From assembly GCF_007671685.1 (NCBI RefSeq), contig NZ_VCNL01000005.1, positions 248,001-312,000 on the forward strand: a stretch of DNA of 64,000 bases, given 5' to 3'. The number at the start of each line of letters is the position of its first letter. Position 1 is the first letter of the stretch. The DNA is from Halorubrum salsamenti. GTDB taxonomy: Archaea > Halobacteriota > Halobacteria > Halobacteriales > Haloferacaceae. The position numbers and the translations under genes are program-made. Below, piece by piece: positions 1,765 to 20,336 of this stretch. Below the pieces are notes generated by a model. The model was not told the DNA's origin. It ran no database searches and saw nothing but the letters and a program-made list of their open reading frames with translations.

Positions 1765-2622
1765 TCACAGTAACTGGTGTTCCTCGAGGTACGTGACGAC
1801 ACGCTCTGCGGCTTCCTCGGGCGATGTATCGATCTGCTCTCCGGCGCTCGATCCCTCGTCGCTGCCCCGTCCGAGCATTCGGTAGATGCGCTCCTCGACC
1901 GTCCCGGTTCGTGGCGGCCGACCACGACCCCAGCGTTCGTTGGGTGTCACATCTTCGATTGTCACAGGACCGACACTCATCGAAAATCGTGACTCACGTG
2001 GCATCACGTCGGCAAGCGGAATCGTCTCGATATCAGCCCGCTGGCCAGCGACGACAGTGTCAAGCGGGGCACGGTCCGGATCCGTAAAGCCGGAATCCAC
2101 TCCGATCACCGCTGGAAGCTCGACGACAATTGCCTCTTGGTGACCTATCGCCAACTTCCGCTGGATCGCGATCTCATCGGCCCCTACGTCGACGTTGGTG
2201 CCGAGAGCCTGCTGGCCAAGTTCGGTCGTTCGAGTCGCACACGGCCAGTTCAGCCGATCGGCGGTGAACGTCGCGATTTCGGCGCCGACGAACGACGATG
2301 CGTGACCGACTACGACCGCATCCGGCGGGTCGCGGGCAACGACGCGACCCAACACCGTCGCGTACTTTTCCGCGGCGACGTTATCGATGGGATCGTACTC
2401 GACGTGGATGCCGCGATCAGCCCCTCGCTCAAGCGCTGACCGGACGGAGCTCCGTGCGGGATCGCCACCGATGCCCACTGCGATCACTTCGTCGGCGATC
2501 TCGAGGGCGGCTTCCAGCGCAACTCGATCGTCGATACTGAACTGGAAGTGGTACGGTTCAGCATTCCCGTCGTTATCGACGATCCGGTGGGGCTCTGGTC
2601 GAGCCGTGACCATCGCTCTCAT
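1765..2622 (-). CDS. fixA: Electron transfer flavoprotein beta subunit (FixA/EtfB-like)
   Basis: A 285-residue ETF beta-family protein. It has the adenine-nucleotide alpha-hydrolase-like fold seen in EtfB (ALEIADEVIAVGIGGDPARSSVRSAL, then DAVVVGHASSFVGAE). It should pair with the alpha subunit encoded at 5113-6126 and carry electrons from a flavoprotein dehydrogenase to the FixC/FixX quinone reductase. It is the last gene of a minus-strand run and its ATG overlaps the end of the SDR gene at 2619 by 4 bases, so the two are translationally coupled. A second in-frame ATG lies 9 bases downstream. Separating fixA from fixB by three genes is unusual, since etfB and etfA are normally adjacent. Confidence 0.85.
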   Translation of the reverse strand: MRAMVTARPEPHRIVDNDGNAEPYHFQFSIDDRVALEAALEIADEVIAVGIGGDPARSSVRSALERGADRGIHVEYDPIDNVAAEKYATVLGRVVARDPPDAVVVGHASSFVGAEIATFTADRLNWPCATRTTELGQQALGTNVDVGADEIAIQRKLAIGHQEAIVVELPAVIGVDSGFTDPDRAPLDTVVAGQRADIETIPLADVMPRESRFSMSVGPVTIEDVTPNERWGRGRPPRTGTVEERIYRMLGRGSDEGSSAGEQIDTSPEEAAERVVTYLEEHQLL

Positions 2623-3395
2623 CGTGCGGTGTACCCTCCATCGACGGGAATTGTCGCCCCAGTCACGAACGCCGCATCCTCGGACGCAAGAAATGCGATA
2701 GCACGTCCAATATCCTCGGGGGCGGCCATTCCGAGCGGTGTTTTATTGATCATCTCTTCAGTCACGTCGGGGACATCTCCGTCGCTGTCCGCCTCCAGTA
2801 CATCTTCGAGCATCGGCGTCTCCACGATGCCTGGACAAATTGTGTTCGCACGGATCGCCGGCGCGTACTCGACTGCGATCGAACGGGTCAGCGAAACGAT
2901 CGCCCCCTTCGTGGCGGTGTAGATATCCATTCCGGGTTCGGCGATCAGCGCTGCGATCGAGGCGTTGTTGATAATGACACCGGATCCGTCGCCCGTTTCA
3001 AGCATCGCTGGGATCGCATGTTTACATGCGTACATCGGGCCCTGAAGGTTGACACCAGTGAGAAATTCGTAGGCGTCGTCGCTGAACTCCGTGATCGGTC
3101 CGTCGGCGTCTCGAGATGCGACGGCGGCGTTGTTCACCAGAATATCGACGCGCCCGAACATGGACTCGGCGTGGTCGACCATGTGGGCGATGGCATCCTC
3201 GTCGCTCACGTCTGTCTCGACGAAGGAGGCGTGGCCTCCATCCTCGGTGATCGACTCCGCCAGCCGTTCTCCCTCATCGACCGAGAGGTCCGCAACGACG
3301 ACATCCGCGCCACGTTCAGCAAGCACGCGGCACGTCGCCGCCCCGATACCGCTAGCACCGCCAGTAACGATCGCGGTCTGAGTGTCGAGATTCAT
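2619..3395 (-). CDS. SDR family NAD(P)-dependent oxidoreductase
   Basis: A classical short-chain dehydrogenase of about 258 residues. It has a TGGASGIG cofactor loop near residue 8, NNAAV in the beta-4 region, and a catalytic Ser in NNASIAA followed by YTATK. The start is the ATG at 3395, because MNLDTQTAIVTG fits the family N-terminus and lies 2 bases after the fixX stop; upstream codons in the same frame run into fixX. Its place inside the Fix operon suggests it oxidises or reduces an intermediate of the same pathway. It is clearly different from the five-copy SDR array downstream (different glycine loop and YxxxK context). The substrate cannot be predicted. Confidence 0.9.
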   Translation of the reverse strand: MNLDTQTAIVTGGASGIGAATCRVLAERGADVVVADLSVDEGERLAESITEDGGHASFVETDVSDEDAIAHMVDHAESMFGRVDILVNNAAVASRDADGPITEFSDDAYEFLTGVNLQGPMYACKHAIPAMLETGDGSGVIINNASIAALIAEPGMDIYTATKGAIVSLTRSIAVEYAPAIRANTICPGIVETPMLEDVLEADSDGDVPDVTEEMINKTPLGMAAPEDIGRAIAFLASEDAAFVTGATIPVDGGYTAR

Positions 3396-3397
3396 GA

Positions 3398-3688
3398 TCA
3401 GCCGAAGTCGAACTCGACTCCTTTCCCCCCCTCTGCCTTCGACCATGACACGGCGCCCTTGTCAGAGTCATTCTCACAGAACACCATACAAGCGCCACAC
3501 TCCACGCAGGGTTCATATGCGAAGTAGATCCCGCCTTTCTGATCCTCTTGATAGTCGAAACACTGTGCGGGACAGAGGTGAAGGCAGGGCTTGTCATCGC
3601 AGGTGACGCATTGCTCGTTGTCGACGGTGATATGAGCATCCTCACTGACGTCCCAGCTGATCGTCTCCAAGTCGTCTTGAACACTCAT
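3398..3688 (-). CDS. fixX: FixX-type ferredoxin-like protein
   Basis: A 96-residue ferredoxin with Cys27, Cys30, Cys35, Cys39 and Cys43, then Cys61, Cys64, Cys67 and Cys71. The second group is a typical CVECGACMVFCEN cluster motif. The tail WSKAEGGKGVEFDFG is characteristic of FixX, the iron-sulfur partner of the FixC flavoprotein. Together they equal the single-chain ETF-quinone oxidoreductase of mitochondria. The gene sits 114 bases downstream of fixC, a larger gap than elsewhere in the operon, so a secondary promoter or processing site there is possible. It is followed by the SDR after 2 bases. Confidence 0.93.
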   Translation of the reverse strand: MSVQDDLETISWDVSEDAHITVDNEQCVTCDDKPCLHLCPAQCFDYQEDQKGGIYFAYEPCVECGACMVFCENDSDKGAVSWSKAEGGKGVEFDFG

Positions 3689-3802: not shown

Positions 3803-5116
3803 TCACAGCGACCGGAGTCCCCGGAAACCGTCCTTCAGCAGATCAATGACTCCGGCGTCGCTCCGCCGAAACGCACGGTACGCCTGCCGCCAGGTCAGCC
3901 CTGCCGCATCGGTGTCCGCGGAGTACATCGATCGCAGCGTCTCAGTAGCAATTCCCGGGTACGCCCCGTACATCCGTTCGTTCTTGAGAAACTGCGGGAG
4001 GTGCCGGTGCTGTTTCATGTCCCGAAGGACGTACGAATCCTCCAGTTCAGAGTCGTATCGTTGTCCGAACTTATCCCAGTTCCCGTCATCTGTACACGCG
4101 ATCGCGGCTTCGGCAGCGACGAGCCCACTTTTAATACCGTAATCCAGGCCTCGGAACGTGTACCCCTTGTTGAGAACCAGTCCTGCGGCGTCTCCAACGA
4201 GCGCAACCCGCCGGTCCTGTCGATCCGGAAGCGTGTCGTAGGAGTGTTCGGGAACCAGAATCCCTTGATACTCCTCGATGTCGTCGCCTTGTACGTAGGG
4301 GCGAACAGTGTCCAATTCCATGAACCGCTCTAACAGCGAATATAGGGGCGTGCCGGACTCGTCGTATCCCTCGTCTCCAAGCCAACTGAGCGTCTCTAAG
4401 CCGCCGACTGCACCGACAGAGATGTACTCGTCGAACGTGTAGAGGAAGTAGCCGATAGTCGGTGCGCCTTCTGGGAACCCCGTGTAGATGTAGGCGGCCC
4501 CCTCGTCGCTATTGAGGTTGAACCGCTGATTGATTTCGTTCCTACCGACATCGATCACCTTCTTCACCGACAGTGCCATGTCCTCGTTGCGCATCGTCCG
4601 CTGGATACCCGTCTTCCGACCGACAGTAGTGTTCACGCCGTCAGCGCCGACGACCGCCTGACACTCGATGTCGCCGTTCTGTCGGTCAGTGTGGACAACC
4701 ACACCGTCCGGTTCCTGCGTCACATCTCTGACCGATGTCTCCGAGAGGAAGGCGACGCCCTGCTCAACCGCACGTTCGACGAACCAGCGGTCGAATTTCC
4801 CCAGCATCAGCGTGTAGTTGGGCTCGTCTCGGAGTTCGAGGTCCCGGTAGCCGATCGAAACCTCCGCGTCGCCGTGGAGGAGTTTGATGTTGTGCTCCAC
4901 GACGTGACGTTCGAGCGGAGCCCCATCAGGGAACTCCGGCACGAGATCCGCAAGGATCGATCCGTAGAGGACGCCGCCGGTGACGTTTTTCATCCCCGGC
5001 TGTTTGGCGCGTTCGACCAAGGCCACGTCGATCCCCTCAGCGGCGAGCCTATACGCGGCCGCAACGCCGGCCCGACCGGCACCGACGACCACCACATCGA
5101 AGGCGACGTCGGTCAT
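3803..5116 (-). CDS. fixC: FixC-like electron transfer flavoprotein-quinone oxidoreductase
   Basis: A 437-residue FAD-dependent oxidoreductase of the geranylgeranyl reductase/FixC family. The N-terminal dinucleotide motif VVVGAGRAG begins at about residue 9, a GG doublet follows (VTGGVLYGS), and the C-terminal FAD motif VALVGDAAG is present. It accepts electrons from ETF (FixAB) and, with FixX, passes them to the membrane quinone pool. In some bacteria FixABCX bifurcates electrons from NADH to quinone and ferredoxin; whether this one does cannot be read from the sequence. It overlaps fixB by 4 bases (ATGA). Confidence 0.92.
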   Translation of the reverse strand: MTDVAFDVVVVGAGRAGVAAAYRLAAEGIDVALVERAKQPGMKNVTGGVLYGSILADLVPEFPDGAPLERHVVEHNIKLLHGDAEVSIGYRDLELRDEPNYTLMLGKFDRWFVERAVEQGVAFLSETSVRDVTQEPDGVVVHTDRQNGDIECQAVVGADGVNTTVGRKTGIQRTMRNEDMALSVKKVIDVGRNEINQRFNLNSDEGAAYIYTGFPEGAPTIGYFLYTFDEYISVGAVGGLETLSWLGDEGYDESGTPLYSLLERFMELDTVRPYVQGDDIEEYQGILVPEHSYDTLPDRQDRRVALVGDAAGLVLNKGYTFRGLDYGIKSGLVAAEAAIACTDDGNWDKFGQRYDSELEDSYVLRDMKQHRHLPQFLKNERMYGAYPGIATETLRSMYSADTDAAGLTWRQAYRAFRRSDAGVIDLLKDGFRGLRSL

Positions 5117-6126
5117 TCCGCCACCTCCTCTGTGGCGCCATCCGCGTCCCGTTTCGCACGTCGGATCGCATCAGCTATCGCAGGGCCGTACTCGTAGGCA
5201 TCGCCGACGATTCCGAGGTCGGCAAAGTTGAAGATCCGCGCGTTCGGATCGGTGTTTATTGGGATCAGATGGTCTGCGTTCACTGACCGCATATGGTAGG
5301 AGTCGCCTGAGATCGCACAAGGGACGTACAACTGTGCATCTATCTCTTTGCCTGTCACGCCGATCTGGCGGTCGTATGCTACCCATCCCTCATCGGAGGG
5401 GGGTCGAGACGCGCCGACGGCGGCGCCGACAGCATCGGCGAGTTCTTCGATCAGATCGAACCCATCGGGGCCGCCGAGACCGAATCCGCCGGCGACGATC
5501 CGACGGGCCTTCGAAAGGTCGTCTTCGGGCACGTCGAACGTCTCAACGTGACGGATGCGATCGTCGTCACCGACCGACACTTCGAGGGTTCGTTCACTGG
5601 GGACGCCTGTCGGCGGTTCATCGGGTGTCCCCAGCGCCTCTGTGTTGAGCGTCACGACGGGCGGAAGCCGTTCGAAGGAGAACTCAGCGTACGCGCGGCC
5701 ACCGTACGCGGGGCGCCCGGCGAGGAGTTCGTCGTCGCGAACGCGGAGCAGGCAGTCAGTGACACATGCGCTCCGTCGACGGCGTGCTGTCGCGGCTGCG
5801 AGATCGGTCCCGTCAGCGGTGTCGGGCAACAAAACGGCCCGTGCATCGGTGGTGGCTTCCGCCAGCGCACGTGACCGCGCTTCGATGCCCGCCGCACCCG
5901 GCGCGAACGTTCCGGCTTCGCGAGTGACGTGGAGTATCTCGTCAGGGTCGCCAGCGGCGATCGCATCGGGCGCGACGACGCCGTCGAAGGCGACGGCGAC
6001 AACCGTGGGTGGGTTGGCCTCATCGAGCGCCTCGGCGAGCCGGTGAGCCTCGTTGAGCAGCGCGACGTCTTCAGCGTCGGGAACGGCCACTATCCGATCG
6101 GTTGATGTCGGCGTTGTATCTGTCAT
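5113..6126 (-). CDS. fixB: Electron transfer flavoprotein alpha subunit (FixB/EtfA-like)
   Basis: A 337-residue ETF alpha protein. The C-terminal FAD-binding domain is clear: a GGFGLGG loop, GAAVGASRPPSDEGW, then QIGVTGKEIDAQLYVPCAISGD and the INTDPNARIFNFADLGIVGD block. The N-terminal half is more divergent and Ala-rich. It overlaps both neighbours by 4 bases (ATGA at each end): the OYE-type dehydrogenase gene upstream and fixC downstream. That places an OYE flavoenzyme, not an acyl-CoA dehydrogenase, as the probable electron donor, comparable to trimethylamine or dimethylglycine dehydrogenases, which are ETF-linked members of the OYE superfamily. Confidence 0.9.
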   Translation of the reverse strand: MTDTTPTSTDRIVAVPDAEDVALLNEAHRLAEALDEANPPTVVAVAFDGVVAPDAIAAGDPDEILHVTREAGTFAPGAAGIEARSRALAEATTDARAVLLPDTADGTDLAAATARRRRSACVTDCLLRVRDDELLAGRPAYGGRAYAEFSFERLPPVVTLNTEALGTPDEPPTGVPSERTLEVSVGDDDRIRHVETFDVPEDDLSKARRIVAGGFGLGGPDGFDLIEELADAVGAAVGASRPPSDEGWVAYDRQIGVTGKEIDAQLYVPCAISGDSYHMRSVNADHLIPINTDPNARIFNFADLGIVGDAYEYGPAIADAIRRAKRDADGATEEVAE

Positions 6127-8057
6127 ACCGATAACTCCCGGGCGAGCATCTCGCCGTCGTATATCGCCTTGTCGATTAGTCGTGGTGCGACACAGTCACC
6201 GATCCTGTGGACTGAGTCGGGTGAGAGCTCTTCTTCCAGCGCCGCTGTAAGGCCGCCTCGGGCCTCACGACGTCCGGCCACAACCAGCGAGTCCGCCGTG
6301 ACGGTGTCCACATCCTCCGAGTAGACGTTGAGCAACTGTGCGGTGTTGTCCTCGTATCCGATGATGGTAGCGTGGGTCTCGATATCGACATCGTGTCGGT
6401 ACAGCGTCTCCAAGAACGGCGGGACGTTCGTTCCCTCCAGCTGGTCGCCCGGATGATAAGAGGTGGTGACGAACGTCACGTCATGGTCGGGCGCGAGGAA
6501 CTCTGCAACTCCTACCCCGGTAGCGTGTTTGTTGCTGTCAAAGACGACGACCGAATCACCGACGGGTTCGCCCTGTAACACGTCCCACGATCGGTGGACA
6601 TCCGGTCCGGCCAAGTCGGGCTCCCGTTCGCTGGCACCGATAGCAACGACCACGTCATCCCACACATCGGCGTCGACGTCAGCGGGCGTGACCTCGGTCC
6701 CTGTCACGACGGTCACCTCGCGGTTCCCCAGTTGATTTTTCAGATTTCTAACGGCATCGCCAAATTCCTGTCGAGAGTCGATTTGTGTGGCGATGTTCGA
6801 CTGACCACCGAGCTCATCCTCACGTTCGCGGATAGTCACGTCATGTCCGAGGTCCGCAGCCGTCACCGCGAAGGAGAGCCCGGCCGGTCCGCCGCCGACG
6901 ACGAGCACTCGCCGGGGTGACGATACTTTCTCGCGGTCTTCCATATGAGGGATCTTCGTCTCACGGCCCGATCGCGGCGTCTGTATACAGCCAACGTGAC
7001 CGTTCGTATGGATGCCGCCCAGACAGTTCTGGTTACACGCGATACAGTGAGTGACTTCCTCGTCGTCGCCGCGCCGAACCTTCCTGACAGTGTCGGCATC
7101 GGCGATGAGCTGGCGGCACATCCCAACGAAGTCCGCGCGGCCCTCCTCCAACACATCATTGGCCTTGGTGAGATCGTTGATCCGTCCCGCCGCGATAACG
7201 GGAATGTCAACGAGTTCTCGTGCTGCACCGTAATACTCGGAAGTATATCCTAACGGCGCGTGCATCGGCGCATCGGTGATGTACAGTTTGGAAATCGTTG
7301 CGATGTCCGAATCGATGAAATCCAGGCTCGAATGGAGGCGACGCATCACTTCAACGGCGTAGTCGTAGCCGTAGCCACCGTCCTCCATCTCATCAAATGT
7401 GAGCCGAATGCCGACCGGGAATTCCTCGCCGACCCTGTCGCGGATGGTTTCGACTACCTCGTTCACGAGACGGACACGGTTGTCAATGGAACCTCCGTAC
7501 TCGTCGCTCCGAGTGTTGTACTTTGGTGATAGAAACTGACGCAAGATCCCGTCGTGACCCGCTTTGAGTTCGATACCGTCGAGATTGCCTCGCTTTACAT
7601 GTTCGGCGGTTTTCGCAAAGCCCAGCTTGATCTCCTCAATGTCCGATCGTTCCATGCGCTTCGGCATCTCGTAGCCAAATTCGGAGGGGACCGCCGAAGG
7701 TGCCCACGTTTCTCGCATCGCGTGTTCGCCGGTGTCCTCTCCACCTGTATGTTGGAGTTGGGCGAATACTTTTGTTCCGTAGTCGTGGACTCTGTCAGCG
7801 ATCATTTTCAAGCGTGGGATCACATCAGGGTCGTAGCCGGAAGCGTACATCGGGTTCGAAGCACTCGGGTGGACGAGCATACTGGAAGGACCGATGATGA
7901 GGCCGACGCCGCCTCGAGCGCGCGCCTCGTAGTAGGCGGCATCGCGTTCGGTCGGCAGTCCGTCCTCTGCGAACCCAGTTTCGTGTGCGAGAAAAACCGT
8001 ACGGTTTGGGATCGTCACAGAGCCGATTCGTCGCGGTGTGAAGAGCATGTCTGGCAT
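6123..8057 (-). CDS. Old yellow enzyme/2,4-dienoyl-CoA reductase-type FMN, 4Fe-4S, FAD oxidoreductase
   Basis: A 644-residue, three-module enzyme. Residues 1-330 form the FMN TIM barrel, with AGHDGILRQFLSP, the catalytic-type His at 168 and NTRSDEYGGS. Cys338, Cys341, Cys345 and Cys357 have exactly the C-x2-C-x3-C-x11-C spacing of FadH-type enzymes. The C-terminal FAD/NAD half begins with VLVVGGGPAGLSFA. Relatives include FadH, BaiCD/BaiH and trimethylamine dehydrogenase. Being first in an operon with fixB, fixC, fixX and fixA, it probably hands electrons to ETF or takes them from it. The gene diverges from the chelatase genes across a 154-bp AT-rich promoter region. A second ATG lies three codons in. 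Confidence 0.9.
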   Translation of the reverse strand: MPDMLFTPRRIGSVTIPNRTVFLAHETGFAEDGLPTERDAAYYEARARGGVGLIIGPSSMLVHPSASNPMYASGYDPDVIPRLKMIADRVHDYGTKVFAQLQHTGGEDTGEHAMRETWAPSAVPSEFGYEMPKRMERSDIEEIKLGFAKTAEHVKRGNLDGIELKAGHDGILRQFLSPKYNTRSDEYGGSIDNRVRLVNEVVETIRDRVGEEFPVGIRLTFDEMEDGGYGYDYAVEVMRRLHSSLDFIDSDIATISKLYITDAPMHAPLGYTSEYYGAARELVDIPVIAAGRINDLTKANDVLEEGRADFVGMCRQLIADADTVRKVRRGDDEEVTHCIACNQNCLGGIHTNGHVGCIQTPRSGRETKIPHMEDREKVSSPRRVLVVGGGPAGLSFAVTAADLGHDVTIREREDELGGQSNIATQIDSRQEFGDAVRNLKNQLGNREVTVVTGTEVTPADVDADVWDDVVVAIGASEREPDLAGPDVHRSWDVLQGEPVGDSVVVFDSNKHATGVGVAEFLAPDHDVTFVTTSYHPGDQLEGTNVPPFLETLYRHDVDIETHATIIGYEDNTAQLLNVYSEDVDTVTADSLVVAGRREARGGLTAALEEELSPDSVHRIGDCVAPRLIDKAIYDGEMLARELSV

Positions 8058-8211: not shown

Positions 8212-10200
8212 ATGGATGTACCGTACCCGTTTGCTGGAATCGTGGATCAGACGGCGATGAAGCGTGCCTTGCTCGTTAACGCCGTCAACCCAAACGTAAA
8301 TGGCGTGCTTATCCGGGGCGAGCGGGGGACCGCCAAGTCGACAGTGGTCCGTGCGTTGACCGACGTGCTTCCAGACATCGAAGTCGTCGCAGACTGCCCG
8401 TATGGCTGCCCACCCGACGATCCGGAGCGAATGTGTAGCAACTGTCGTGAACGATACGAGGTAGGAACCGAGTTCCCGGTCGATCGTCGGCGTATGCGGG
8501 TGGTGGATCTGCCGCTAAACGCCTCTGAGGACCGCGTCGTCGGAAGTATCGATCTCCAGCAGGCCGTTCGTGCCGGTGAGCAGACGTTCGAGCCGGGTAT
8601 ATTGGCGGAAGCCAACCAGAACATCCTTTACGTGGACGAGGTGAACCTGCTCGACGACCATATCGTCGATGTACTGCTTGACGCCGCGGCGATGGGCGAG
8701 AACATCGTCGAACGCGAAGGTGTCTCGTTCCGCCACCCGGCCGACTTCGTTCTCGTTGGGACGATGAATCCCGAAGAAGGAAACCTTCGTCCCCAACTCC
8801 TCGACCGCTTCGATCTAGTCGTTGACGTCGAGGCTAGTGACGATCCGTCGGAACGCGTCGAGATCGCCGAGCGTCGTGAAGCGTTCGATGCGGATCCAGA
8901 CGCATTTCGAGCGGCTTATCAAGACGAACAGCAGTCGCTCCGCGACCGCATCCGTGAATCCCGAGACCGCCTCGATGCGATCGAGATGAGCGAGGAGACG
9001 CTTCGAGACGCCTCCTATGAGGCGCTCCGCCAGCGCGCACACGGCATGCGCGCGGACATTGCCATCAATCGCGTGGCTCGCTCCATCGCTGCGCTCGATG
9101 GCGCAGGCGAGGTAACCGACGCACACGTCGCAGAGGCCCAATACTTCGTGTTCCCCCATAGAGTCGAAGGTGTCCCGGAAATGAGCTTCGGCGAGGGGCT
9201 CATCTCGACAGGTGACGACAGTGAAGAATCTGAGACTGACGAGGAAGACAAAGACGACCCCGATGGCGACGAAAACGCCGACGCGGAAGGCGGCGGGTTG
9301 CCCATTGCCGAAGATGAGGGGTCCTACACGGTGGACCGGACCGCCATCAATCCCTCGAAAGATCGCACGGTGCGGACCGCGCTTGCGCGACGCACGCCCT
9401 CACGGGTGGACGTGCGGAGCGGCCGATACGTCCGTTCGCGAATCGAAGAGGATGTCGACGACGTGGCCATCGACGCGACACTGCGGGCGGCCGCTCCACA
9501 CCAGCGCCGGCGGGGGGGCGACGGCGGTCTCCGCGTCAAACCCAGAGACCTACGGCAGAAACTCCGTGAACGGACCGCCCGCGCGCTGGTGGTGTTTGTC
9601 GTCGACGCCAGTGGAAGCGTGATGAGCGGCCGCCAGATGAGAGAGACCAAGCGCGGTCTCCTCTCACTTATCGAAGACGCCTATCGGGCACGCAACCGGG
9701 TCGCTGTGGTGGTGTTCCGAGGCGAAAGCGCGTTCACCCTCGTCGAGCCCACGCGGAGCCACCGACTGGCTCGCGACGCCGTTTCTCAGTTGACAGTTGG
9801 CGGGAACACACCACTTGCTCACGGTCTCGTCGAATCGTATCGGCTGATCGAGCGGGAGAAGCGCCGTGACCAAGACCTCTACCCCCTGACAGTCCTGCTG
9901 TCCGATGGTCAGTCGAACGTCGAGTACCGCGAGGACGGCGATCCGAGACGAGATGCGTTTCGTGCTGCCGCGCTGTTCGACGAGAACGACATCCCATCCG
10001 TGTTCGTCGACACTGGCTACAAGATCGACACGACGCCCGACGAGATCTGGACGGACCGGAAAGCAAAGCGCATGAAACGCAAGCGCTTCGAGCGTAACCA
10101 AGAGTTCGCCGAGACAATGGGAGCCGACTACTTGCCGCTGATCGACCTCCCACGAGACGCCAACATCGTGGCCGAAGAAGGAGAGGAAGGAACAGCGTGA
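8212..10200 (+). CDS. Chelatase-type AAA+ ATPase with C-terminal VWA domain (ChlD/BchD/CobT-like)
   Basis: A 662-residue protein. The AAA+ module (1-330) has Walker [10 protein letters not shown], Walker [14 protein letters not shown] and sensor-1 [11 protein letters not shown] four-cysteine insertion ([10 protein letters not shown], then CSNC) is typical of this ATPase group. An acidic linker of Asp/Glu-rich sequence follows (about 338-360). The C-terminal VWA domain has a MIDAS motif DASGS, a GGNTPLAHG loop and LLSDGQSN. In Mg- and Co-chelatases such motors drive metal insertion by a large catalytic subunit (BchH/CobN), which is absent from this window. A role in maturing a metalloenzyme of the neighbouring pathway is equally possible. 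Confidence 0.85.
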   Translation: MDVPYPFAGIVDQTAMKRALLVNAVNPNVNGVLIRGERGTAKSTVVRALTDVLPDIEVVADCPYGCPPDDPERMCSNCRERYEVGTEFPVDRRRMRVVDLPLNASEDRVVGSIDLQQAVRAGEQTFEPGILAEANQNILYVDEVNLLDDHIVDVLLDAAAMGENIVEREGVSFRHPADFVLVGTMNPEEGNLRPQLLDRFDLVVDVEASDDPSERVEIAERREAFDADPDAFRAAYQDEQQSLRDRIRESRDRLDAIEMSEETLRDASYEALRQRAHGMRADIAINRVARSIAALDGAGEVTDAHVAEAQYFVFPHRVEGVPEMSFGEGLISTGDDSEESETDEEDKDDPDGDENADAEGGGLPIAEDEGSYTVDRTAINPSKDRTVRTALARRTPSRVDVRSGRYVRSRIEEDVDDVAIDATLRAAAPHQRRRGGDGGLRVKPRDLRQKLRERTARALVVFVVDASGSVMSGRQMRETKRGLLSLIEDAYRARNRVAVVVFRGESAFTLVEPTRSHRLARDAVSQLTVGGNTPLAHGLVESYRLIEREKRRDQDLYPLTVLLSDGQSNVEYREDGDPRRDAFRAAALFDENDIPSVFVDTGYKIDTTPDEIWTDRKAKRMKRKRFERNQEFAETMGADYLPLIDLPRDANIVAEEGEEGTA

Positions 10201-10292
10201 ACCGGTTCCATCCTACAAAGCAAAGCGCGATCGGACCGACAGTCACCACCCGATCAGACACCCCCAACCGTCACAATCCGAACACGTAACCG

Positions 10293-11384
10293 ATGACTAA
10301 CCACAATACCAGACAGCAAGAGACGACGCCCGACACCGGATCGTTCGCAAGCCAGACGTTCCCGTTCACGGCCATCGTCGATCAGACCGAAATGAAGCGT
10401 GCGCTCGTGTTGAACGCCATCAACCCGGATATCGGCGGCGTACTGATCCGGGGCGAGCGAGGGACCGCCAAGTCGACGGCGGCCCGTGCGCTGGCTGAGG
10501 TGCTTCCGGACATTGATGTCGTTGAGGACTGTCCATACGGCTGTCCTCCCGACGATCCGGACCGAATGTGTAGTGACTGTCGCGATCGACACGGCGGCGA
10601 CGGAGCACTGCCGACGGCATCTCGGCCGATGCGAGTCGTGGACCTGCCACTGAACGCCTCGGAGGACCGCGTCGTGGGAAGTATCGACCTCGAACGAGCA
10701 GTTCAGGCGGGCGAACGCGAATTCGAGCCAGGTATCTTGGCGGAAGCCAACCGGAACATCCTCTATGTGGACGAAGTAAACCTGCTCGACGACCACATTG
10801 TCGACGTGCTGCTTGACGCCGCGGCGATGGGCGAAAACATCGTCGAACGCGAAGGTGTCTCGTTCCGCCATCCGGCCGAGTTCATCCTTGTCGGCACGAT
10901 GAACCCGGAGGAGGGAGACCTCCGCCCCCAACTGCTCGACCGCTTCGGGCTGGTGGTTGATGTCGAGGGCGTCAACGAGGTCGACGATCGGGTCGAGATC
11001 AGCCAGCGTCGTGCCGCCTTCGAGGCAGATCCGGACGCATTCAGAGCAGAGTATGCGTCCGACCAAGCGACGCTGCGGTCGGAGATCGTTGAAGCTCGTG
11101 AACATCTTGACGGTGTCGACCTCGGCGACGACATCGCGGAACTCATCGCGGGGATGAACATCGAGCTCGACGTCGACGGCCACCGCGGCGACATCACACT
11201 CCGGCGCGTGGCTAGGACGCTGGCGGCGTTCGAGGGAGACGACGAGGTGAGTGCGCGTACCGTCCGGCGCGTCGCGCGGATGGCGCTGGAACACCGGCTC
11301 CAGCGACTGCCGTTCGAGGAGGAAGAACAAGACGTACTGAGTACGTTCCACGACGTGCGGCGCGACCTCGGGCTGGAAGACTGA
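10293..11384 (+). CDS. Chelatase-type AAA+ ATPase subunit I (ChlI/BchI-like)
   Basis: A 363-residue paralogue of the AAA+ part of the preceding gene, without linker or VWA domain. Walker [10 protein letters not shown], the [10 protein letters not shown] and CSDC cysteine insertion, [13 protein letters not shown] and GTMNPEEG are all kept. The two ATPase domains are so alike that a local duplication followed by loss or gain of the VWA half is likely. An I-type and a D-type subunit together would form the usual two-ring chelatase motor. The gap to the upstream gene is 92 bases, so co-transcription is plausible. An IS200/IS605 element starts about 70 bases after its stop. Confidence 0.87.
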
Positions 11385-11659
11385 GCAACCGACTGGGAGA
11401 CCGAACAACGCTCCCAAAGCGTGTGCGGTTAGCTGGATATAGGCGCTAAGCCCCCACCCTCAACGGAGCGACCGAAGGGAGCGGAGTAGGGTGGGGATAC
11501 AGCGTCCCCAGAAATCGAAGATTTCTGGTGTGCGAACGAGACGCGGAGCGTCTCGTCAACGCCGTCATCATCTGTTCATACAGCGATACGGTTGCAGGCC
11601 CACAGACCCACGTAGTCGCAACGTTTTTCATTGGGGTACCGTACAACAGTACGAACCCA

Positions 11660-13516: not shown

Positions 13517-14338
13517 ATGCCAGAGTACGATTTCGACGGTAAGGTTGCGTTTGTCACTGGTGCCGGGCACGGCCAGGGACAGTCACACGCACAGCACTAC
13601 GCGAAACACGGTGCCGACGTCGTCGTCACCGATATCTGCGAGAACATCGACACCAATCCCTACGACCTCAGTACCCCTGACGAACTGGAGGAAACGGCGA
13701 GTCTCGTCGAAGACGAGGGGCAGGAGGCACTTGCGGTCCAAATGGACGTCCGCGAGGAGGACGAGGTGGAGGCGGCCGTCGAGCAAGCAGTCGATCACTT
13801 CGGTCACATCGACATCCTCGCGAACAACGCTGGCATCTTCAACGCCGCCGACGCGACTGAGATGACCGAGCAGCAGTGGGATGATATGATCGACACGAAC
13901 CTGAAAGGGGTGTGGCTCTGTGCGAAACACGTCGGCCAGCACTTCATCGACCGCGGCGACGGTGGGAAAATCATCTCCACGGCGTCGACGGCGGCGTTCA
14001 CGGCCTCCCCCGGCAACGGCCACTACGTCGCCGCCAAGCACGGGGTCCGCGGGCTGACGAAGACGCTAGCGCTCGAACTTGCGGAGTACGACGTCAACGT
14101 CAATGCGGTCGCACCAACGGGGATGGACACCCCGATGATTTCGGGATACGTCGAAGCTTACGGCGAGGAACTTCTCGAAGAGACGATGGCCATGACTGGA
14201 CCATCCAATATCTTCGGGGACGGCGGGATGCTCCAATCCAAGGAGATCAGCGAGGCGTACATGTGGCTCTCAAGCGACGCCGCACGCTACGTCACCGGAA
14301 CCACGCTAAAAGTAGACGCAGGAATGACGGCGAAGTAA
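13517..14338 (+). CDS. SDR array copy 1 (carveol/levodione dehydrogenase-like)
   Basis: A 273-residue SDR. It has the TGAGHGQGQSHA cofactor loop, ANNAGIF, the catalytic Ser in STASTAA and YVAAK, and an ending LKVDAGMTAK. The GQG-SHA variant resembles the SDR group known from mycofactocin-coupled dehydrogenases that act on terpenoid or alicyclic alcohols with tightly held NAD. No mycofactocin genes are visible here. The start MPEYDFDGK is shared with its paralogues and follows a GGAGAAG stretch. The gene opens a tandem array of closely similar SDRs with short spacers, probably one transcript. Confidence 0.88.
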   Translation: MPEYDFDGKVAFVTGAGHGQGQSHAQHYAKHGADVVVTDICENIDTNPYDLSTPDELEETASLVEDEGQEALAVQMDVREEDEVEAAVEQAVDHFGHIDILANNAGIFNAADATEMTEQQWDDMIDTNLKGVWLCAKHVGQHFIDRGDGGKIISTASTAAFTASPGNGHYVAAKHGVRGLTKTLALELAEYDVNVNAVAPTGMDTPMISGYVEAYGEELLEETMAMTGPSNIFGDGGMLQSKEISEAYMWLSSDAARYVTGTTLKVDAGMTAK

Positions 14339-14350
14339 TCAACCACAACA

Positions 14351-15172
14351 ATGCCAGAGTACGACTTCAGCGGCAAGGTCGCGTTCGTCACCGGCGCCGC
14401 ACATGGACAGGGACGATCACACGCACAGCACTACGCGAAACACGGCGCCGATGTCGTCGTCACCGACATCGGCCATGACATGGAGTCCGTCCCCTACGAT
14501 CTCGGCACGAGCGACGAACTGGCGGAGACGGCAGATCTAGTGGGAGACGAAGGTCAGGAAGCGCTCGCGATCGAGATGGACGTCTCCGATGAGACCCAGG
14601 TCGAGTCCGCTGTCGACGAGGCGCTCGAAGAGTTCGGCCACATCGACATCCTCGCCAACAACGCCGGTATCGGATCGATGGCCGACGCAACGGAGATGCC
14701 CGAACAGCAGTGGGACGAGATGATCGATACGAACCTCAAAGGCGTCTGGCTCTGCTCGAAACACGTCGGGCAACACTTCATCGACCGCGGTGACGGCGGC
14801 AAGATCGTCTCCACCGCATCAACTGCCGGCGCCATCGGACTTCCTAGCCAGGGTCACTATGTCGCAGCCAAACACGGCGTTGTCGGACTGACGAAGACGC
14901 TGGCGCTCGAACTCGCCGAATACGACGTCAATGTCAACTGTATCGGTCCAACCGGCATCGACACGCCGATGATTTCCGGCATCACCGAAGCCTACGGTGA
15001 GGAGGCACTTGAAGAGATGACCGAGATCACCGGCCCGTGGAACGTGTTCGGCGACGGCGGGATGCTCGAATCGAAGGACATCAGCGAGGCGTACATGTGG
15101 CTCTCCAGCGACGCTGCCCGGTACGTCACCGGGATCTATCTCCCCGTCGACGCCGGGTTCCTCGCAAAGTGA
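14351..15172 (+). CDS. SDR array copy 2
   Basis: A 273-residue paralogue of copy 1 beginning MPEYDFSGKVAFVTG. The cofactor loop TGAAHGQGRSHA, ANNAGIG, STASTAG and YVAAK are intact, so it should be active. It differs from copy 1 mainly in the substrate-side segment (residues ~190-240: SGITEAYGEEALEEMTEITGPW). That is where SDR substrate pockets vary, so the copies may serve different stereoisomers or successive alcohols. The spacer from copy 1 is 12 bases. Confidence 0.88.
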   Translation: MPEYDFSGKVAFVTGAAHGQGRSHAQHYAKHGADVVVTDIGHDMESVPYDLGTSDELAETADLVGDEGQEALAIEMDVSDETQVESAVDEALEEFGHIDILANNAGIGSMADATEMPEQQWDEMIDTNLKGVWLCSKHVGQHFIDRGDGGKIVSTASTAGAIGLPSQGHYVAAKHGVVGLTKTLALELAEYDVNVNCIGPTGIDTPMISGITEAYGEEALEEMTEITGPWNVFGDGGMLESKDISEAYMWLSSDAARYVTGIYLPVDAGFLAK

Positions 15173-15195
15173 GTCAACCACGAACCTAAAAAAAG

Positions 15196-16017
15196 ATGGT
15201 AGAATACGACTTCAGCGGCAAGGTGGCGTTCGTCACCGGCGCCGCACATGGACAGGGCGAATCGCACGCGGTCAATTACGCGAAACACGGCGCCGATGTC
15301 GTCGTCACCGACATCTGTGAGGATATCGAATCGAACCCGTACCCGATGGGAACGGGTGACGAACTCGAAGACACCGCCCAGCAGGTCGAAGACGAAGGGC
15401 AGGAGGCGCTCGTGATCGAGATGGACGTCCGCGAGGAGGACGAAGTTGAGGCCGCCGTCGAACAGGCGGTCGATCACTTCGGCCGCATCGACATCCTCGC
15501 AAACAACGCCGGCATTTGGAATATGGCGGATCTGACCCAGCTGGACGAAAAGCAGTGGGACGAACTGATCGATACAAATCTCAAAGGCGTTTGGCTCTGC
15601 TCGAAACACGTCGGCCAGCACTTCATCGACCGCGGCGACGGTGGCAAGATCGTCAACACCTCCTCGACTGCGGGGTTCACTGGTATTCCCGGTGGCGGCC
15701 ACTACGTCGCGGCAAAACACGGCGTTCGGGGGCTGACGAAGACGCTAGCATTAGAACTCGCCGAGTACGACGTCAACGTCAACACTGTTGCACCCACAGG
15801 CGTGGACACTCCACTCACCGCGGGCATGATGGAGGCCTACGGCGAGGAGACGATGGGTGAGATGATCGAAGTGACCGGACCGTTCAACGTGTTCGGCGAC
15901 GGCGGGATGATAGATGCACAGGACATCAGCGACGCGTATATGTGGCTGTCGAGCGACGCCGCGCGCTACGTCACTGGAACCACGATCAAAGTAGACGCAG
16001 GCTTCACTGCGAAATAA
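15196..16017 (+). CDS. SDR array copy 3
   Basis: A 273-residue paralogue beginning MVEYDFSGKVAFVTG. It has TGAAHGQGESHA, ANNAGIW, NTSSTAG and YVAAK. The Arg following GQG in copies 2, 4 and 5 is Glu here (GQGESHA), which may alter cofactor phosphate recognition or stability. The substrate-loop region is TAGMMEAYGEETMGEMIEVTG. It starts 23 bases after copy 2, and copy 4 starts 5 bases after its stop. Confidence 0.88.
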   Translation: MVEYDFSGKVAFVTGAAHGQGESHAVNYAKHGADVVVTDICEDIESNPYPMGTGDELEDTAQQVEDEGQEALVIEMDVREEDEVEAAVEQAVDHFGRIDILANNAGIWNMADLTQLDEKQWDELIDTNLKGVWLCSKHVGQHFIDRGDGGKIVNTSSTAGFTGIPGGGHYVAAKHGVRGLTKTLALELAEYDVNVNTVAPTGVDTPLTAGMMEAYGEETMGEMIEVTGPFNVFGDGGMIDAQDISDAYMWLSSDAARYVTGTTIKVDAGFTAK

Positions 16018-16022
16018 CGACG

Positions 16023-16844
16023 ATGCCAGAGTACGACTTCGACGGTAAGGTCGCGTTCGTCACCGGTGCCGCACACGGACAGGGACGATCGCATGCACAG
16101 CACTACGCGAAACACGGCGCCGATGTCGTCGTCACCGACATCGGCCATAACATGGACACCGTACCGTACGATCTCGGTACACCGGATGAGCTCGAAGAGA
16201 CAGTAAGTCTAGTCGAGGAGGAGGAGCAGGAGGCGCTTGCGATCGAGATGGACGTTCGCGACGAAGCACAGGTTGAATCCGCCGTTGAGGAAGCGATCGA
16301 TCACTTCGGCCGCATCGACATCCTCGCGAACAACGCCGGTATCGAGTCTATGGCGGACGCGGTAAAGATGGACGAAGTGACGTGGGACGAGATGTTGGAC
16401 ACGAATCTGAAAGGCGCGTGGCTCTGTGCGAAACACGTCGGCCAGCACTTCATCGACCGCGGCGACGGTGGCAAGATCGTCTCCACCTCCTCGACAGCGG
16501 GGCTGATCGGAGCGCCTAGCAACGCCCACTACGTCTCGGCGAAGTGGGGGATCCGTGGCCTGACAAAGACGCTGGCGCTCGAACTCGCCGAGTACGATGT
16601 CAACGTCAACTGCGTCTGTCCGACCGTAGTTAACACCCCAATGATCTCGGGGATGACGGAGGCGTACGGCGAGGAGGTGTTCGAGGACATGGCGATCAGC
16701 GGCCCGATGAACATCTTCAATCCGGAAGATCCTGGCATCGAGTCCAGCGACATCAGTGAAGCATATATGTGGCTCTCTAGCGACGCCGCCCGCTACGTCA
16801 CCGGAATTGCTCTGCCTGTCGACGCCGGGTTCGTCGCGAAATGA
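16023..16844 (+). CDS. SDR array copy 4
   Basis: A 273-residue paralogue beginning MPEYDFDGKVAFVTG. The catalytic Ser is in STSSTAG and the Tyr/Lys pair in YVSAKWG, where the other four copies have AAKHG. The C-terminal loop is the most divergent of copies 1-4 (ISGPMNIFNPEDPGIES), so altered specificity is likely. The start at 16023 is supported by the conserved N-terminus; a longer frame would overlap copy 3. A decayed 3' end of another copy follows at 16860. Confidence 0.88.
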   Translation: MPEYDFDGKVAFVTGAAHGQGRSHAQHYAKHGADVVVTDIGHNMDTVPYDLGTPDELEETVSLVEEEEQEALAIEMDVRDEAQVESAVEEAIDHFGRIDILANNAGIESMADAVKMDEVTWDEMLDTNLKGAWLCAKHVGQHFIDRGDGGKIVSTSSTAGLIGAPSNAHYVSAKWGIRGLTKTLALELAEYDVNVNCVCPTVVNTPMISGMTEAYGEEVFEDMAISGPMNIFNPEDPGIESSDISEAYMWLSSDAARYVTGIALPVDAGFVAK

Positions 16845-16859
16845 GCTAACAACTCTTAT

Positions 16860-16941
16860 TTGGCGTCTCTCTGGCTGTTCAACTACGCCACCTGCTACGT
16901 CACTGGGGTCGGGTTGCCGACCAACAGGGATGCGGCCGCAA
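16860..16941 (+). pseudogene. Decayed 3' end of a sixth SDR copy
   Basis: The plus-strand translation SLWLFNYATCYVTGVGLPT, ending DAAAK, lines up with the shared C-terminus of the array (MWLSSDAARYVTG, then PVDAGFVAK). About 27 codons remain, with many substitutions and no upstream body. It is best read as the scar of a deleted or recombined copy. Confidence 0.6.
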
Positions 16942-16957
16942 AACGGCGTCCTCTAGA

Positions 16958-17263
16958 TTACTCCAAGGATACTGTTGGGTTCTCTTCACTCCAGTACGAT
17001 GCGAGGGAGACAGCTAGCAACACACCTGTAATAAAAGCCACCGTGAGTGTCATCGGCTCAACAGCGTCACGGTATACCCACGCCAGCGCTCCCGAAACTC
17101 CTGCGTTCGCGCTACCCCAGAGTACGTTTAGCCGAGCGCTTGATTCAGCACCGAACGGCGTCATATGACGGTGGCCAGTGATCCCACGAACGAAATGTGG
17201 AACCGCATTCGTTCCGAAAACACCGATGACGGCGAAGACCACGAGTTCAGTAATCGTTGCCAT
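16958..17263 (-). CDS. Small conserved membrane protein
   Basis: A 101-residue protein starting MATITELVVFAVIGVFGTNAVPHFVRG. It has three hydrophobic segments (about 5-20, 45-65, 72-92). The GTNAVPHFVRGITGHRHMTPFG and NVLWGSANAG blocks resemble a small family of unknown function found in bacteria and archaea. It lies antisense between SDR copies 4 and 5, next to the decayed copy, and so interrupts the array. The downstream ATG at 17263 is preferred over an upstream start. No function is assigned. Confidence 0.6.
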   Translation of the reverse strand: MATITELVVFAVIGVFGTNAVPHFVRGITGHRHMTPFGAESSARLNVLWGSANAGVSGALAWVYRDAVEPMTLTVAFITGVLLAVSLASYWSEENPTVSLE

Positions 17264-17413
17264 ATTCGTATTATGAGAAACGAAATAATAATATCCAGGG
17301 CGAGACGGCATAGCTAGGCAACGTCCTCGCCGTGATGAATTTGAGACTTCCTTCGGGTTTCCGTGTCGCTACCACCGTAAACTAATTGGTTGAGTAGTTC
17401 TCAACCATTTATT

Positions 17414-18232
17414 GTGGTAAACTACGATTTTGACGGCCAGGTTGCGTTTATCACTGGGGCTGGCCGGGGACAGGGTCGCTCACACGCACAGTACTACGCG
17501 AAACACGGTGCCGACGTGGTGTTGACCGGAGGGGGGCGCAACATCGAGACCAGCCAGTACCCACTCGCGTCATCGGCCGATCTACAGGAGACCGCAAGAC
17601 TCGTCGAACAAGCGGGTTGCCGGGCCCTCACTCTCCGTGTCGATGTTCGCGATGAGGCAGCGGTCAAAGCCGCCGTCGCGGATGCCGTCGCGGAGTTCGG
17701 GCGGATCGACATCCTCGCGAACAACGCCGGTATCTGGAACGTCGTTGACCTCGTTGAGATGCCCGAACAGCAGTGGGACGAACTGGTTGACTCCGACCTC
17801 AAAGGTGCGTGGCTTTGTGCGAAACACGTCGGTCAGCACTTTATCGATCGCGGTAACGACGGCAAGATCATCTCAACCGCGTCGACAGCCGGCCTTGTCG
17901 GATCCAAGGGATCGGGCCACTACGCGGCTGCGAAACATGGCCTCATCGGACTCACGAAATCGCTCGCACTCGAACTTGCTCCCCATCGCGTGACCGTCAA
18001 CGCCGTCGCTCCCACCGGCGTCACGACCCCGATGATCGACGGAATCCTCGAGACGATGGGAGAAGAGGCGCTCGCGTCAGTCTCTGACGCCAGCGGATCG
18101 ATGAACGTACTCGATGAACAGCTGATCGAACCGCGCGATGTGAGCGAAGCGTACATGTGGCTCTCCAGCGACGCCGCCCGCTACGTCACCGGAACGGTAC
18201 TTCCCGTCGATGCGGGGATGACCGCGAAATGA
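17414..18232 (+). CDS. SDR array copy 5
   Basis: A 272-residue paralogue, more diverged than copies 1-4. It has TGAGRGQGRSHA, ANNAGIW, STASTAG and YAAAK, and ends LPVDAGMTAK. The start is taken as GTG at 17414, because MVNYDFDGQ then aligns with MVEYDFSGK of copy 3; an upstream TTG at 17390 would add eight unmatched residues. It is separated from the other copies by about 570 bases holding the decayed copy and an antisense membrane gene, so it probably has its own promoter. Confidence 0.85.
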   Translation: MVNYDFDGQVAFITGAGRGQGRSHAQYYAKHGADVVLTGGGRNIETSQYPLASSADLQETARLVEQAGCRALTLRVDVRDEAAVKAAVADAVAEFGRIDILANNAGIWNVVDLVEMPEQQWDELVDSDLKGAWLCAKHVGQHFIDRGNDGKIISTASTAGLVGSKGSGHYAAAKHGLIGLTKSLALELAPHRVTVNAVAPTGVTTPMIDGILETMGEEALASVSDASGSMNVLDEQLIEPRDVSEAYMWLSSDAARYVTGTVLPVDAGMTAK

Positions 18233-18422: not shown

Positions 18423-20336
18423 TCAGAGCCGCCTTGCAAGTTGTTCTCCGTCGTAGTACGCGCGATCAAGCTTTCGCGGTGAGATTGCGTCGCCAATCCG
18501 ATACACGTCGTCACGGAGCTCGGCGAGTTCAAGATAGAGGTCCTCGTCAGCGTGACGACGCCCGGCAACGACGACGGTGTCGGGCTCACGGGTCATGGTC
18601 TCACCAGTAAGCGTGTTCCGGAGCGTGACGGTCCCGTCAGCGGAGACCGCGTCAACCGTGTGGTTCCCTGTGAATTCGGCGCCTTGGGCCTGGAGTGCCG
18701 CGACGAATCCTGGAAGATTGGGTTGTTCAGTCCGGAAGGCAGGATAGTGATCGCTTGACACCATCTCCACCGTGGATCCCATATCGAGCAACGTCAGCCC
18801 TGTCTGGACCGTAATGATCCAGCGGTTCTCGTCGAAGAGCAGAACGTCGTCGCCGACGCTCGCTCCTTCGAGAACGTCGAACGCGTTGACCACCTCTCCC
18901 TCAAAATCGTACGTAGACACGTCTGGACGGGTAGCACCGGTCGCAACGACGACAGTGTCCCATGAGGAATCGACGGTATCACCACTCACGGGTGAGTTCA
19001 GTTCAACCTTGACATCGGCGTCGCTGACAGCGGCTTCGAGGTCTTCCGCGGCACGGGTGAATGGTTCGAGTGGCCCTTCGGCCGCGAGTCCGAGTTGTCC
19101 GCCGAGACTGTCACTGGCCTCGCGAAGCGTCACGTCGTGGCCACGGTCAGCAGCGATGCTCGCGAACCGAAGCCCGGCAGGACCACCACCGATGACGAGC
19201 ACACGCTGTGGAAGTGCGGTCGGATCAACTGCGGACAGCGCAGCAAGGTCCGTCTCGCGACCAGTCCGAGGATTGACCACGCACTCGACATGGCCGCCAT
19301 GAGCGTGTCCGTATACCCCTTCGAGACACTTCTGATTACACTGAATACACCGGTTGTGACGGTCGCTGGCAGCGGCCTTCGAGAGGGTTTCGGCGTCCGC
19401 CAGAAGCTGTCGTGTGAAGCTCACGAAATCTACACCGGCGTCAAAGAGGGCATCCGCATCCTCGACAGAGGTGAACGGGAGACGGCCTATAACGGGAGCG
19501 TCGACTAGGTCGGTTGCCGTGGTGATCGGATCAAGCAGATCCGGAGCCGACGCGGAAATTCCTGCATGGGTCTGGTTGTAGGTCGCGTAAGATCCTACAG
19601 TACACGAGAGATAATCGAACCCCTCGACGGAGTCAAGCAGATCTGGGATGTCGTCGAATTCGTAGCCGCCGTACTCAAGCTCGGCCAGTGAGAGGTGGAG
19701 ACCGACTGGTCCGTCAACGCTATCTGTAACCCTAGAGAGAGCTTCGTTCACAAACCGTGCCCGATCATTCCATCCACCACCGTATTCATCATCTCGGGTG
19801 TTGTATCGTGGGGAAAGGAACTGTCGCAGGACAGAGAACGGGCCAGCGGCCAACTCGACGCCGTCGAATCCAGCACGGTCCAGATTGTTCGCAGCGGTCG
19901 CGAACCCGTCCAAGACGGAATTGATGTCCGCCTGAGTCATCTGCTTCGGCATCTCGTAGGCGGCATCGGATGGGGATGACGCTGGTGCGAGTTGGGGCTG
20001 CATCTCCCAGTCACCACGAGACTCTGCACCCGTGTGGGTTAACTGCCCGATAATGTGAGAGTCGTGAGCGTGGATAGCGTCGGCGACGGACGTCAACCCC
20101 GGCAGCGACCCGTCGTCATATGCGTCAACAAAGGCTGGTCCGCTAGCTGACGGATGAACCAGCATTCCAGCCGGTCCAATCACGAGCCCGGCACCACCGG
20201 CCGCACGTGCGGCCAAGTGGGTAGCAAGCGCGTCCGTTGGTTTCCCGTCCTCCACGAGCCGTGTACGGACAGGTCGGAACACACCACGGTTCCTGACAGT
20301 CAGCCCGTCAAGGGCTCCTTGCTCGGAGAGATCCAT
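18423..20336 (-). CDS. OYE/2,4-dienoyl-CoA reductase-type paralogue with altered active site
   Basis: A 637-residue paralogue of the enzyme at 6123-8057, with the same order of FMN barrel, Fe-S site and FAD/NAD domain (VLVIGGGPAGLRFA). Two differences stand out. The AGHDGILRQF block with its His is AGPFSVLRQF here, so the His at the FMN site is a Pro at position 166. The Fe-S cysteines read C-x2-C-x3-C-x14-C instead of x11. Substrate chemistry may therefore differ, or this copy may work mainly in electron transfer. It is 42 bases downstream of the CinA-like gene. Confidence 0.85.
   Translation of the reverse strand: MDLSEQGALDGLTVRNRGVFRPVRTRLVEDGKPTDALATHLAARAAGGAGLVIGPAGMLVHPSASGPAFVDAYDDGSLPGLTSVADAIHAHDSHIIGQLTHTGAESRGDWEMQPQLAPASSPSDAAYEMPKQMTQADINSVLDGFATAANNLDRAGFDGVELAAGPFSVLRQFLSPRYNTRDDEYGGGWNDRARFVNEALSRVTDSVDGPVGLHLSLAELEYGGYEFDDIPDLLDSVEGFDYLSCTVGSYATYNQTHAGISASAPDLLDPITTATDLVDAPVIGRLPFTSVEDADALFDAGVDFVSFTRQLLADAETLSKAAASDRHNRCIQCNQKCLEGVYGHAHGGHVECVVNPRTGRETDLAALSAVDPTALPQRVLVIGGGPAGLRFASIAADRGHDVTLREASDSLGGQLGLAAEGPLEPFTRAAEDLEAAVSDADVKVELNSPVSGDTVDSSWDTVVVATGATRPDVSTYDFEGEVVNAFDVLEGASVGDDVLLFDENRWIITVQTGLTLLDMGSTVEMVSSDHYPAFRTEQPNLPGFVAALQAQGAEFTGNHTVDAVSADGTVTLRNTLTGETMTREPDTVVVAGRRHADEDLYLELAELRDDVYRIGDAISPRKLDRAYYDGEQLARRL

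Follow-up and report, generated by a model that had tools for sequence, protein, structure and literature searches.

Tandem mycofactocin-coupled-type dehydrogenases in a haloarchaeal mycofactocin island, and a candidate flavoprotein route from mycofactocin to the quinone pool

Among the mycofactocin proteins, MftD is the enzyme that deaminates 3-amino-5-[(4-hydroxyphenyl)methyl]-4,4-dimethyl-2-pyrrolidinone (AHDP); the return of electrons to respiration falls to MftG. The mycobacterial system, MftA to MftG, comprises, in the sections of the accounts drawn on here (PMC5264612, PMC11778925), a precursor, MftC, MftF and a family of short-chain dehydrogenases/reductases (SDRs) with an insert that covers the bound nicotinamide adenine dinucleotide (NAD) in structures of mycobacterial relatives (PMC5264612). 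The MftD, MftE and MftR families were described as not universal in the relevant part of Haft 2011 (PMC3023750), and MftG was reported to be absent from about 25% of the genomes with mftC, whether a different enzyme takes its place being stated as an open question in that section (PMC11778925). The same part of Haft 2011 (PMC3023750) gives a haloarchaeal case, Haloterrigena turkmenica, with five SDRs of family TIGR03971 and a plasmid-borne mycofactocin cluster. Here we describe a further member of this kind, which extends the known arrangement, in Halorubrum salsamenti (genome of 3.67 Mb). The window, that is the whole stretch of 64,000 nucleotides that was analysed (positions 248001-312000 of contig NZ_VCNL01000005.1, labelled C17; coordinates without a prefix are counted from its first base), carries five tandem SDR genes, S1 to S5. 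With a probability of about 0.85, we read this array as the dehydrogenases that belong to a haloarchaeal mycofactocin island, consisting of old paralogs whose lids have diverged and are individually conserved.

The five genes lie on the forward strand as intact open reading frames for proteins of 272-273 residues, with no internal stops: S1 at 13517..14338 (324 bits against TIGR03971), S2 at 14351..15172 (323 bits), S3 at 15196..16017 (329 bits), S4 at 16023..16844 (324 bits) and S5, which has a GTG start, at 17414..18232 (325 bits). All scores, 323.3-329.2 bits, lie above the curated cut-off of 300, and pairwise identity is 71-80% among S1-S4 and 60-64% between S5 and each of these. A preliminary description of this DNA, made from the sequence alone, had recognized five tandem paralogs resembling mycofactocin-coupled dehydrogenases, and in both respects it was right. 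A sixth intact TIGR03971 SDR is located to the left of the window (C17:238216-239013). In an alignment, the six copies of the genome (S0 to S5) and the 3PGX stretch all show the insert that covers the NAD site, which follows strand 2 and precedes the next helix; an ordinary SDR encoded at 2619-3398 lacks it. The shared N-terminus and GQG-SHA loop and the varying substrate segment that had been described are also recovered: among S1-S4 the mean identity is 91% over residues 6-40 and falls to 61% in the lid (residues 191-246), where S5 is 42% identical to S1-S4.

The preliminary description had reported that no mycofactocin genes were seen, which holds for the window only because it begins inside mftF; the genes mftA, mftB2 and mftC all lie less than 2 kb upstream of it. 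A profile search placed MftC at C17:246390-247226 (305 bits, cut-off 265). Directly before it come MftA, of 39 residues and with the C-terminus IDGICGVY (TIGR03969, 35.9 bits, cut-off 25), and, next to MftA, MftB2 (132 bits, cut-off 62), so that the radical S-adenosylmethionine enzyme MftC is accompanied by a chaperone of the MftB2 type. The C-terminal IDGICGVY motif of MftA, with its CGVY ending, recurs in all nine mftC-bearing genomes of the sample described below. Directly after MftC follows a protein of 790 residues that starts 657 bases left of the window (L029:17344-19716), in which a glycosyltransferase is fused to an FkbM methyltransferase (TIGR01444, 99 bits, cut-off 37.7); its C-terminal part forms the first open reading frame of the window (1..1716, forward strand). 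The best family for its glycosyltransferase portion is MftF (TIGR03965, 241 bits, cut-off 280), and the position fits. The fusion suggests that the sugar chain on mycofactocin may be methylated. An MftE-like creatininase (159 bits, cut-off 172) is encoded about 6 kb upstream of mftA, and the best match to MftD (TIGR03966) in the whole genome scores 23 bits, against a cut-off of 471. The biosynthesis genes mftA, mftB2, mftC and mftF adjoin the window.

The connection between these SDRs and mycofactocin genes was followed in 243 genomes of the order, nine of which carry MftC over its cut-off (at least 302 bits, the next best score being 152). Two or more TIGR03971-type SDRs (E<=1e-80) were found in 9/9 of the mftC-bearing genomes and in 0/234 of the others. 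The former have 2-9 each, a count that takes in three copies at 298-299 bits, the second copies of genomes G012 and G039 both scoring 298 against the cut-off of 300; among the latter, 220 have none and 14 exactly one. A tree was built from 65 sequences, namely the 51 SDRs listed for the nine genomes, with the three just below 300 bits among them, and the 14 orphans. In each of the nine genomes every copy sits in a lineage of its own, and the grouping of S1-S5 as a single clade is rejected by the approximately unbiased (AU) test (p-AU 9e-54), their relatives being dispersed among other mftC-bearing haloarchaea. S2 groups with copies of G056, G231 and G183, S4 with copies of G213, G231 and G056, and S5 is 84% identical to a copy of Halolamina pelagica (G213); for S3 the tree gives no clear ortholog and a position as sister group of the S1 set, supported at 90/90. 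The amplification is therefore not recent, contrary to the preliminary description, and the silent divergence among S1-S5 (dS 0.80-1.73) agrees with this. Separate acquisition of the copies, which had been named as an outcome that would overturn that proposal, comes near to what the tree gives; the copies look, all the same, less like five independent acquisitions than like an old set of paralogs that has stayed with the island and travelled with it between haloarchaea, probably often on plasmids.

Across the 14 tested pairs dN/dS ranges from 0.04 to 0.30, and identity differs between segments. For the four copies with clear orthologs, lid identity inside the ortholog set is 90% (S1), 87% (S2), 74% (S4) and 86% (S5). 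Lids that are 61% identical between S1-S4 and 74-90% identical within ortholog sets argue for specialization and not for dosage, and each counted pocket is conserved on its own line. Of the diversification or dosage selection envisaged earlier, the diversification of the substrate segment stands, and dosage alone is rejected since the lids differ too much between copies; the nearly identical pockets that would have spoken for dosage were not found.

Family membership leads to the prediction that every SDR keeps an NAD buried and non-exchangeable and oxidizes an alcohol substrate of its own. The captive NADH would be reoxidized by mycofactocin made by the adjoining mftA, mftB2, mftC and mftF, with the likely MftE. 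As a further step, reduced mycofactocin, and perhaps also the last biosynthetic oxidation, may deliver electrons to flavoenzymes of the Old Yellow Enzyme (OYE) type, from there to the electron transfer flavoprotein (ETF) EtfAB, to FixC/FixX and to the quinone pool, a route that would stand in place of MftG and MftD. We propose only tentatively, and at somewhat less than even odds, that this module replaces MftD and/or MftG.

The genes of the putative route, and among them the ordinary SDR, lie on the reverse strand between mftF and the array, with one exception. They encode an EtfB-like protein (1765..2622; Pfam ETF, best NCBIfam family mft_etfB, TIGR04503, 87 bits, cut-off 200), the ordinary SDR without the NAD-covering insert (2619..3398), a FixX-like 4Fe-4S ferredoxin (3398..3688; Fer4 matches weak and below gathering scores, relatives annotated as 4Fe-4S ferredoxin), a FixC-like flavin adenine dinucleotide protein of the ETF:quinone oxidoreductase type (3803..5116; 273 and 261 bits with PRK10015/FixC models, below their cut-offs), an EtfA-like protein (5113..6126; Pfam ETF_alpha, best NCBIfam family mft_etfA, NF038209, 130 bits, cut-off 240) and OYE1, a FadH/OYE-type flavoenzyme with the pattern C-x2-C-x3-C-x11-C (6123..8057). 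The exception is OYE2, of the same type with C-x2-C-x3-C-x14-C, which is also on the reverse strand and follows the array (18423..20336). TIGR03997 is the best-matching family for both OYE1 and OYE2, at 620 and 424 bits, below its cut-off of 793. The presence of mft_etfA, mft_etfB and two OYE families in NCBIfam indicates that the association is familiar to annotators. Among the openly licensed papers searched, none was found that states a link between ETF and mycofactocin, nor one that joins 'mycofactocin' with 'haloarchaea' or with 'electron transfer flavoprotein', spelling variants having entered only in mixed queries.

When the genes of this genome were compared by tblastn with the eight other mftC-bearing genomes (counts include its own), MftA (by its motif), MftB, MftC, MftF, EtfB, the FixX-like ferredoxin (72-92% identical), FixC, EtfA and OYE1 were found in 9/9, as was OYE2, which was cut at the end in two of the retrieved islands and is complete there in a genome-wide search. 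The AAA/VWA gene pair described below is present in 7/9, ortholog-level matches to the ordinary SDR in 6/9, the MftE-like protein in 6/9 within the retrieved stretch and FkbM next to MftF in 3/9. Besides the fusion in this genome, FkbM adjoins MftF in G231 and G240, and FkbM matches follow MftF in loci L118 and L119. A scan for further loci returned 11, of which eight are haloarchaeal and three have a weak or no mft match. Three of the eight are contigs of genomes already counted, and in the other five the module is visible as far as each stretch reaches, L125 showing only EtfB and the ordinary SDR. The plasmid pHTUR01 of H. turkmenica (NC_013744.1) shares mftE, mftA, mftB2, mftC and mftF, an OYE, EtfA, the FixC-like protein, the ferredoxin and EtfB, the AAA/VWA pair, tandem TIGR03971 SDRs, a second OYE and FkbM next to MftF; it differs in the number and order of the SDRs, in an additional monooxygenase-like gene in its array and in having no ordinary SDR to separate EtfB from the ferredoxin. 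Compared with the mycobacterial system as covered in the sections cited above, H. salsamenti has no MftD or MftG over the cut-off, has MftB2 for MftB and possesses the OYE-ETF-FixCX module.

MftD is over the TIGR03966 cut-off in 0/9 mftC-bearing genomes, and MftG is over the cut-off in 0/9 with TIGR04542 and TIGR03970, two of the three MftG models (the third being NF038210). A hidden MftD elsewhere was considered and rejected: besides the 23 bits of H. salsamenti, four of the nine genomes have matches resembling L-lactate dehydrogenase of at most 154 bits, far below 471. Twelve plasmid records carry MftC, and in these MftD and the module are mutually exclusive (4 versus 8), a count that concerns plasmid records and stands apart from the chromosomes of the bacterial strains. 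MftD without the module within 10 kb occurs on plasmids of Thermomicrobium, Streptomyces NBC_00080, Tsukamurella and Mycolicibacterium chubuense; the module without MftD in the record occurs in six Streptomyces and two haloarchaeal records. The sixth Streptomyces record, S. lavendulae, is unannotated, and its module was called by tblastn; it is nearly identical to that of S. yangpuensis, which leaves 11 distinct plasmids. In the SAT1 record the second OYE is unannotated and was matched only in part. A plasmid-wide MftD search (E<=1e-60) returned the same four records and two Sphingopyxis records without MftC, and a plasmid-wide query with a Streptomyces EtfB returned the six Streptomyces records only. 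The two Sphingopyxis macrogoltabida plasmids, H17 and H18, carry an unannotated MftD-like gene (about 51% identical) and gave no MftC match at E<=1e-30. In a tree of MftC that held seven of the nine haloarchaea and five of the six module-bearing Streptomyces, the module accompanies two separate MftC lineages, which suggests at least one exchange between the two kinds of cluster.

On the Streptomyces plasmids EtfA, the FixC-like protein, the ferredoxin and EtfB come directly after mftC, as a shared feature, while the MftC lineage is another one and at most one TIGR03971 SDR is annotated beside the module. Lack of MftD together with FadH/OYE enzymes is common to the Streptomyces plasmids and to the Saccharopolyspora clusters; in the BGCFlow study (PMC11162802), TIGR03997 is present in 17 Saccharopolyspora clusters without mftD, and production of methylated mycofactocin is reported for S. 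erythraea; together these provide printed support for the replacement. ETF goes unmentioned in the part of that account dealing with these clusters. Chains from a flavoenzyme through EtfAB to an ETF:quinone oxidoreductase are known in other settings, and the module looks like them: in the section of PMC7688666 on nicotine catabolism, 6-hydroxypseudooxynicotine dehydrogenase (Pno), a flavoenzyme with flavin mononucleotide (FMN) and a 4Fe-4S cluster, is clustered with etfAB and with the ETF:quinone oxidoreductase Euo. As a point of difference from Pno, the sequence of OYE1 resembles dienoyl-CoA reductase more closely than it does histamine or trimethylamine dehydrogenase. An identity of OYE1 as one of these amine dehydrogenases was rejected, both on this ground and because neither OYE1 nor OYE2 has a cysteine at the aligned place of what we take to be the covalent-FMN cysteine.

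For this last step of the proposed route a different reading is plausible, though less likely than not, namely that OYE, ETF and FixCX form a separate substrate pathway of enoate or steroid-like reduction that merely travels with the mft genes. It would suit the closest solved relative of OYE1, a 2,4-dienoyl-CoA reductase (245 bits), the presence of BaiCD among the NCBIfam relatives and the ordinary SDR within the same gene run. It fits poorly with the distribution of the genes, as orthologs of OYE1 (at least 1094 bits, versus at most 340 in genomes without mftC) and of FixC (at least 583 versus at most 226) occur in exactly the nine mftC-bearing genomes of the 243, and with the Streptomyces clusters, in which the module occupies the place that MftD has in MftD-bearing ones. 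Moreover, in alignments of four of the nine haloarchaeal and four of the six Streptomyces OYE pairs, which also underlie the OYE trees, the four cysteines are retained in OYE1 and OYE2 and the tyrosine at the position that is presumably the reductase active site is not conserved in either. Should the replacement be correct, for which the odds again fall a little short of even, mycofactocin could be completed and recycled along either of two equivalent routes, MftD with MftG or, in haloarchaea and some Streptomyces, OYE-EtfAB-FixC/FixX to quinone, with the OYE-type enzymes assuming one of the two oxidations or both; synthesis and use of mycofactocin would then have one common respiratory entry. 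In organisms without an over-cut-off MftD anywhere in the genome, the island offers a candidate gene set for the task of MftG as well as for the step that MftD would carry out, which makes the question stated in PMC11778925, whether a different enzyme takes the place of MftG, directly testable.

It is also conceivable, but improbable, that the SDRs have the family fold without using mycofactocin, either exchanging NAD in the ordinary way or passing electrons to another acceptor. The 14 mftC-negative genomes with a single TIGR03971 SDR indicate that the presence of one does not necessarily imply mycofactocin; these orphans form one clade in the tree, and none of 11 mft and module queries had a tblastn match in three of their regions (L140-L142). 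Against it stand the restriction of multi-copy arrays to genomes with mftC and the retention of the NAD-covering insert. The orphan SDRs (L073-L086) contrast with the statement, in the section of PMC5264612 concerned, that these SDRs occur only alongside mycofactocin markers. Several other points weigh against assigning the array to a mycofactocin island: MftF and the MftE-like protein score just below their cut-offs, MftE was not found within the retrieved stretch of three of the nine mftC-bearing genomes, and an MftG-like gene of H. turkmenica (G240) is matched in pieces of 248 and 101 bits, below the cut-off of 387. MftD, the known maker of the redox-active group, is missing, and if it were unreplaced the product might not be redox-active.

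The idea that the copies were recently amplified in tandem within this lineage, whether for dosage or to diversify rapidly, could draw on the tandem order and on tracts of identical silent codons (9/142 within-genome pairs versus 1/150 between-genome pairs at p<=0.005). As the origin of the whole set it is rejected, given the rejected clade, the separate lineages in every genome, the silent divergence and an S1 whose identity is 94% with a Halolamina copy (G183) and only 75-78% with S2-S4. Occasional gene conversion between the copies is likely from these tracts; S2/S4 is among the nine pairs in a run of 400 shuffles and has p 0.006 in one of 2000.

The preliminary description had placed a 27-codon scar of another copy after S4, and this proves credible. 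The remnant, at approximately 16860..16940 on the forward strand, corresponds to the C-terminus: it matches SDR residues 246-273 in register and with no gap, 10-12 of 27 residues being identical to the SDR copies, and its peptide score was reached by 0/1000 shuffles for each of the five copies. The DNA evidence is weaker: 0/500 resampled sequences reached the score for S2-S5 and 3/500 for S1, and 3/517 unrelated tiles of the window scored at least as high as the remnant against S4.

Other genes complete the picture of the surroundings. To the left of the window lies a molybdopterin oxidoreductase operon (L029:1383-6581) with catalytic, Fe-S and NrfD-type subunits and a chaperone; a search of the islands retrieved from the other eight mftC-bearing genomes did not find the catalytic subunit. 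Inside the array, a small protein without a Pfam match is encoded on the reverse strand (16958..17311), with matches in 6/9 mftC-bearing genomes, its own included. The chelatase-type AAA pair occupies 8212..11384 on the forward strand (8212-10200 with a VWA domain, and 10293-11384). Between this pair and S1, an insertion of the IS200/IS605 type with a Y1 transposase and a TnpB-like OrfB is found at 11528-13311; on a Halolamina plasmid the SDR array stands directly after the AAA gene.

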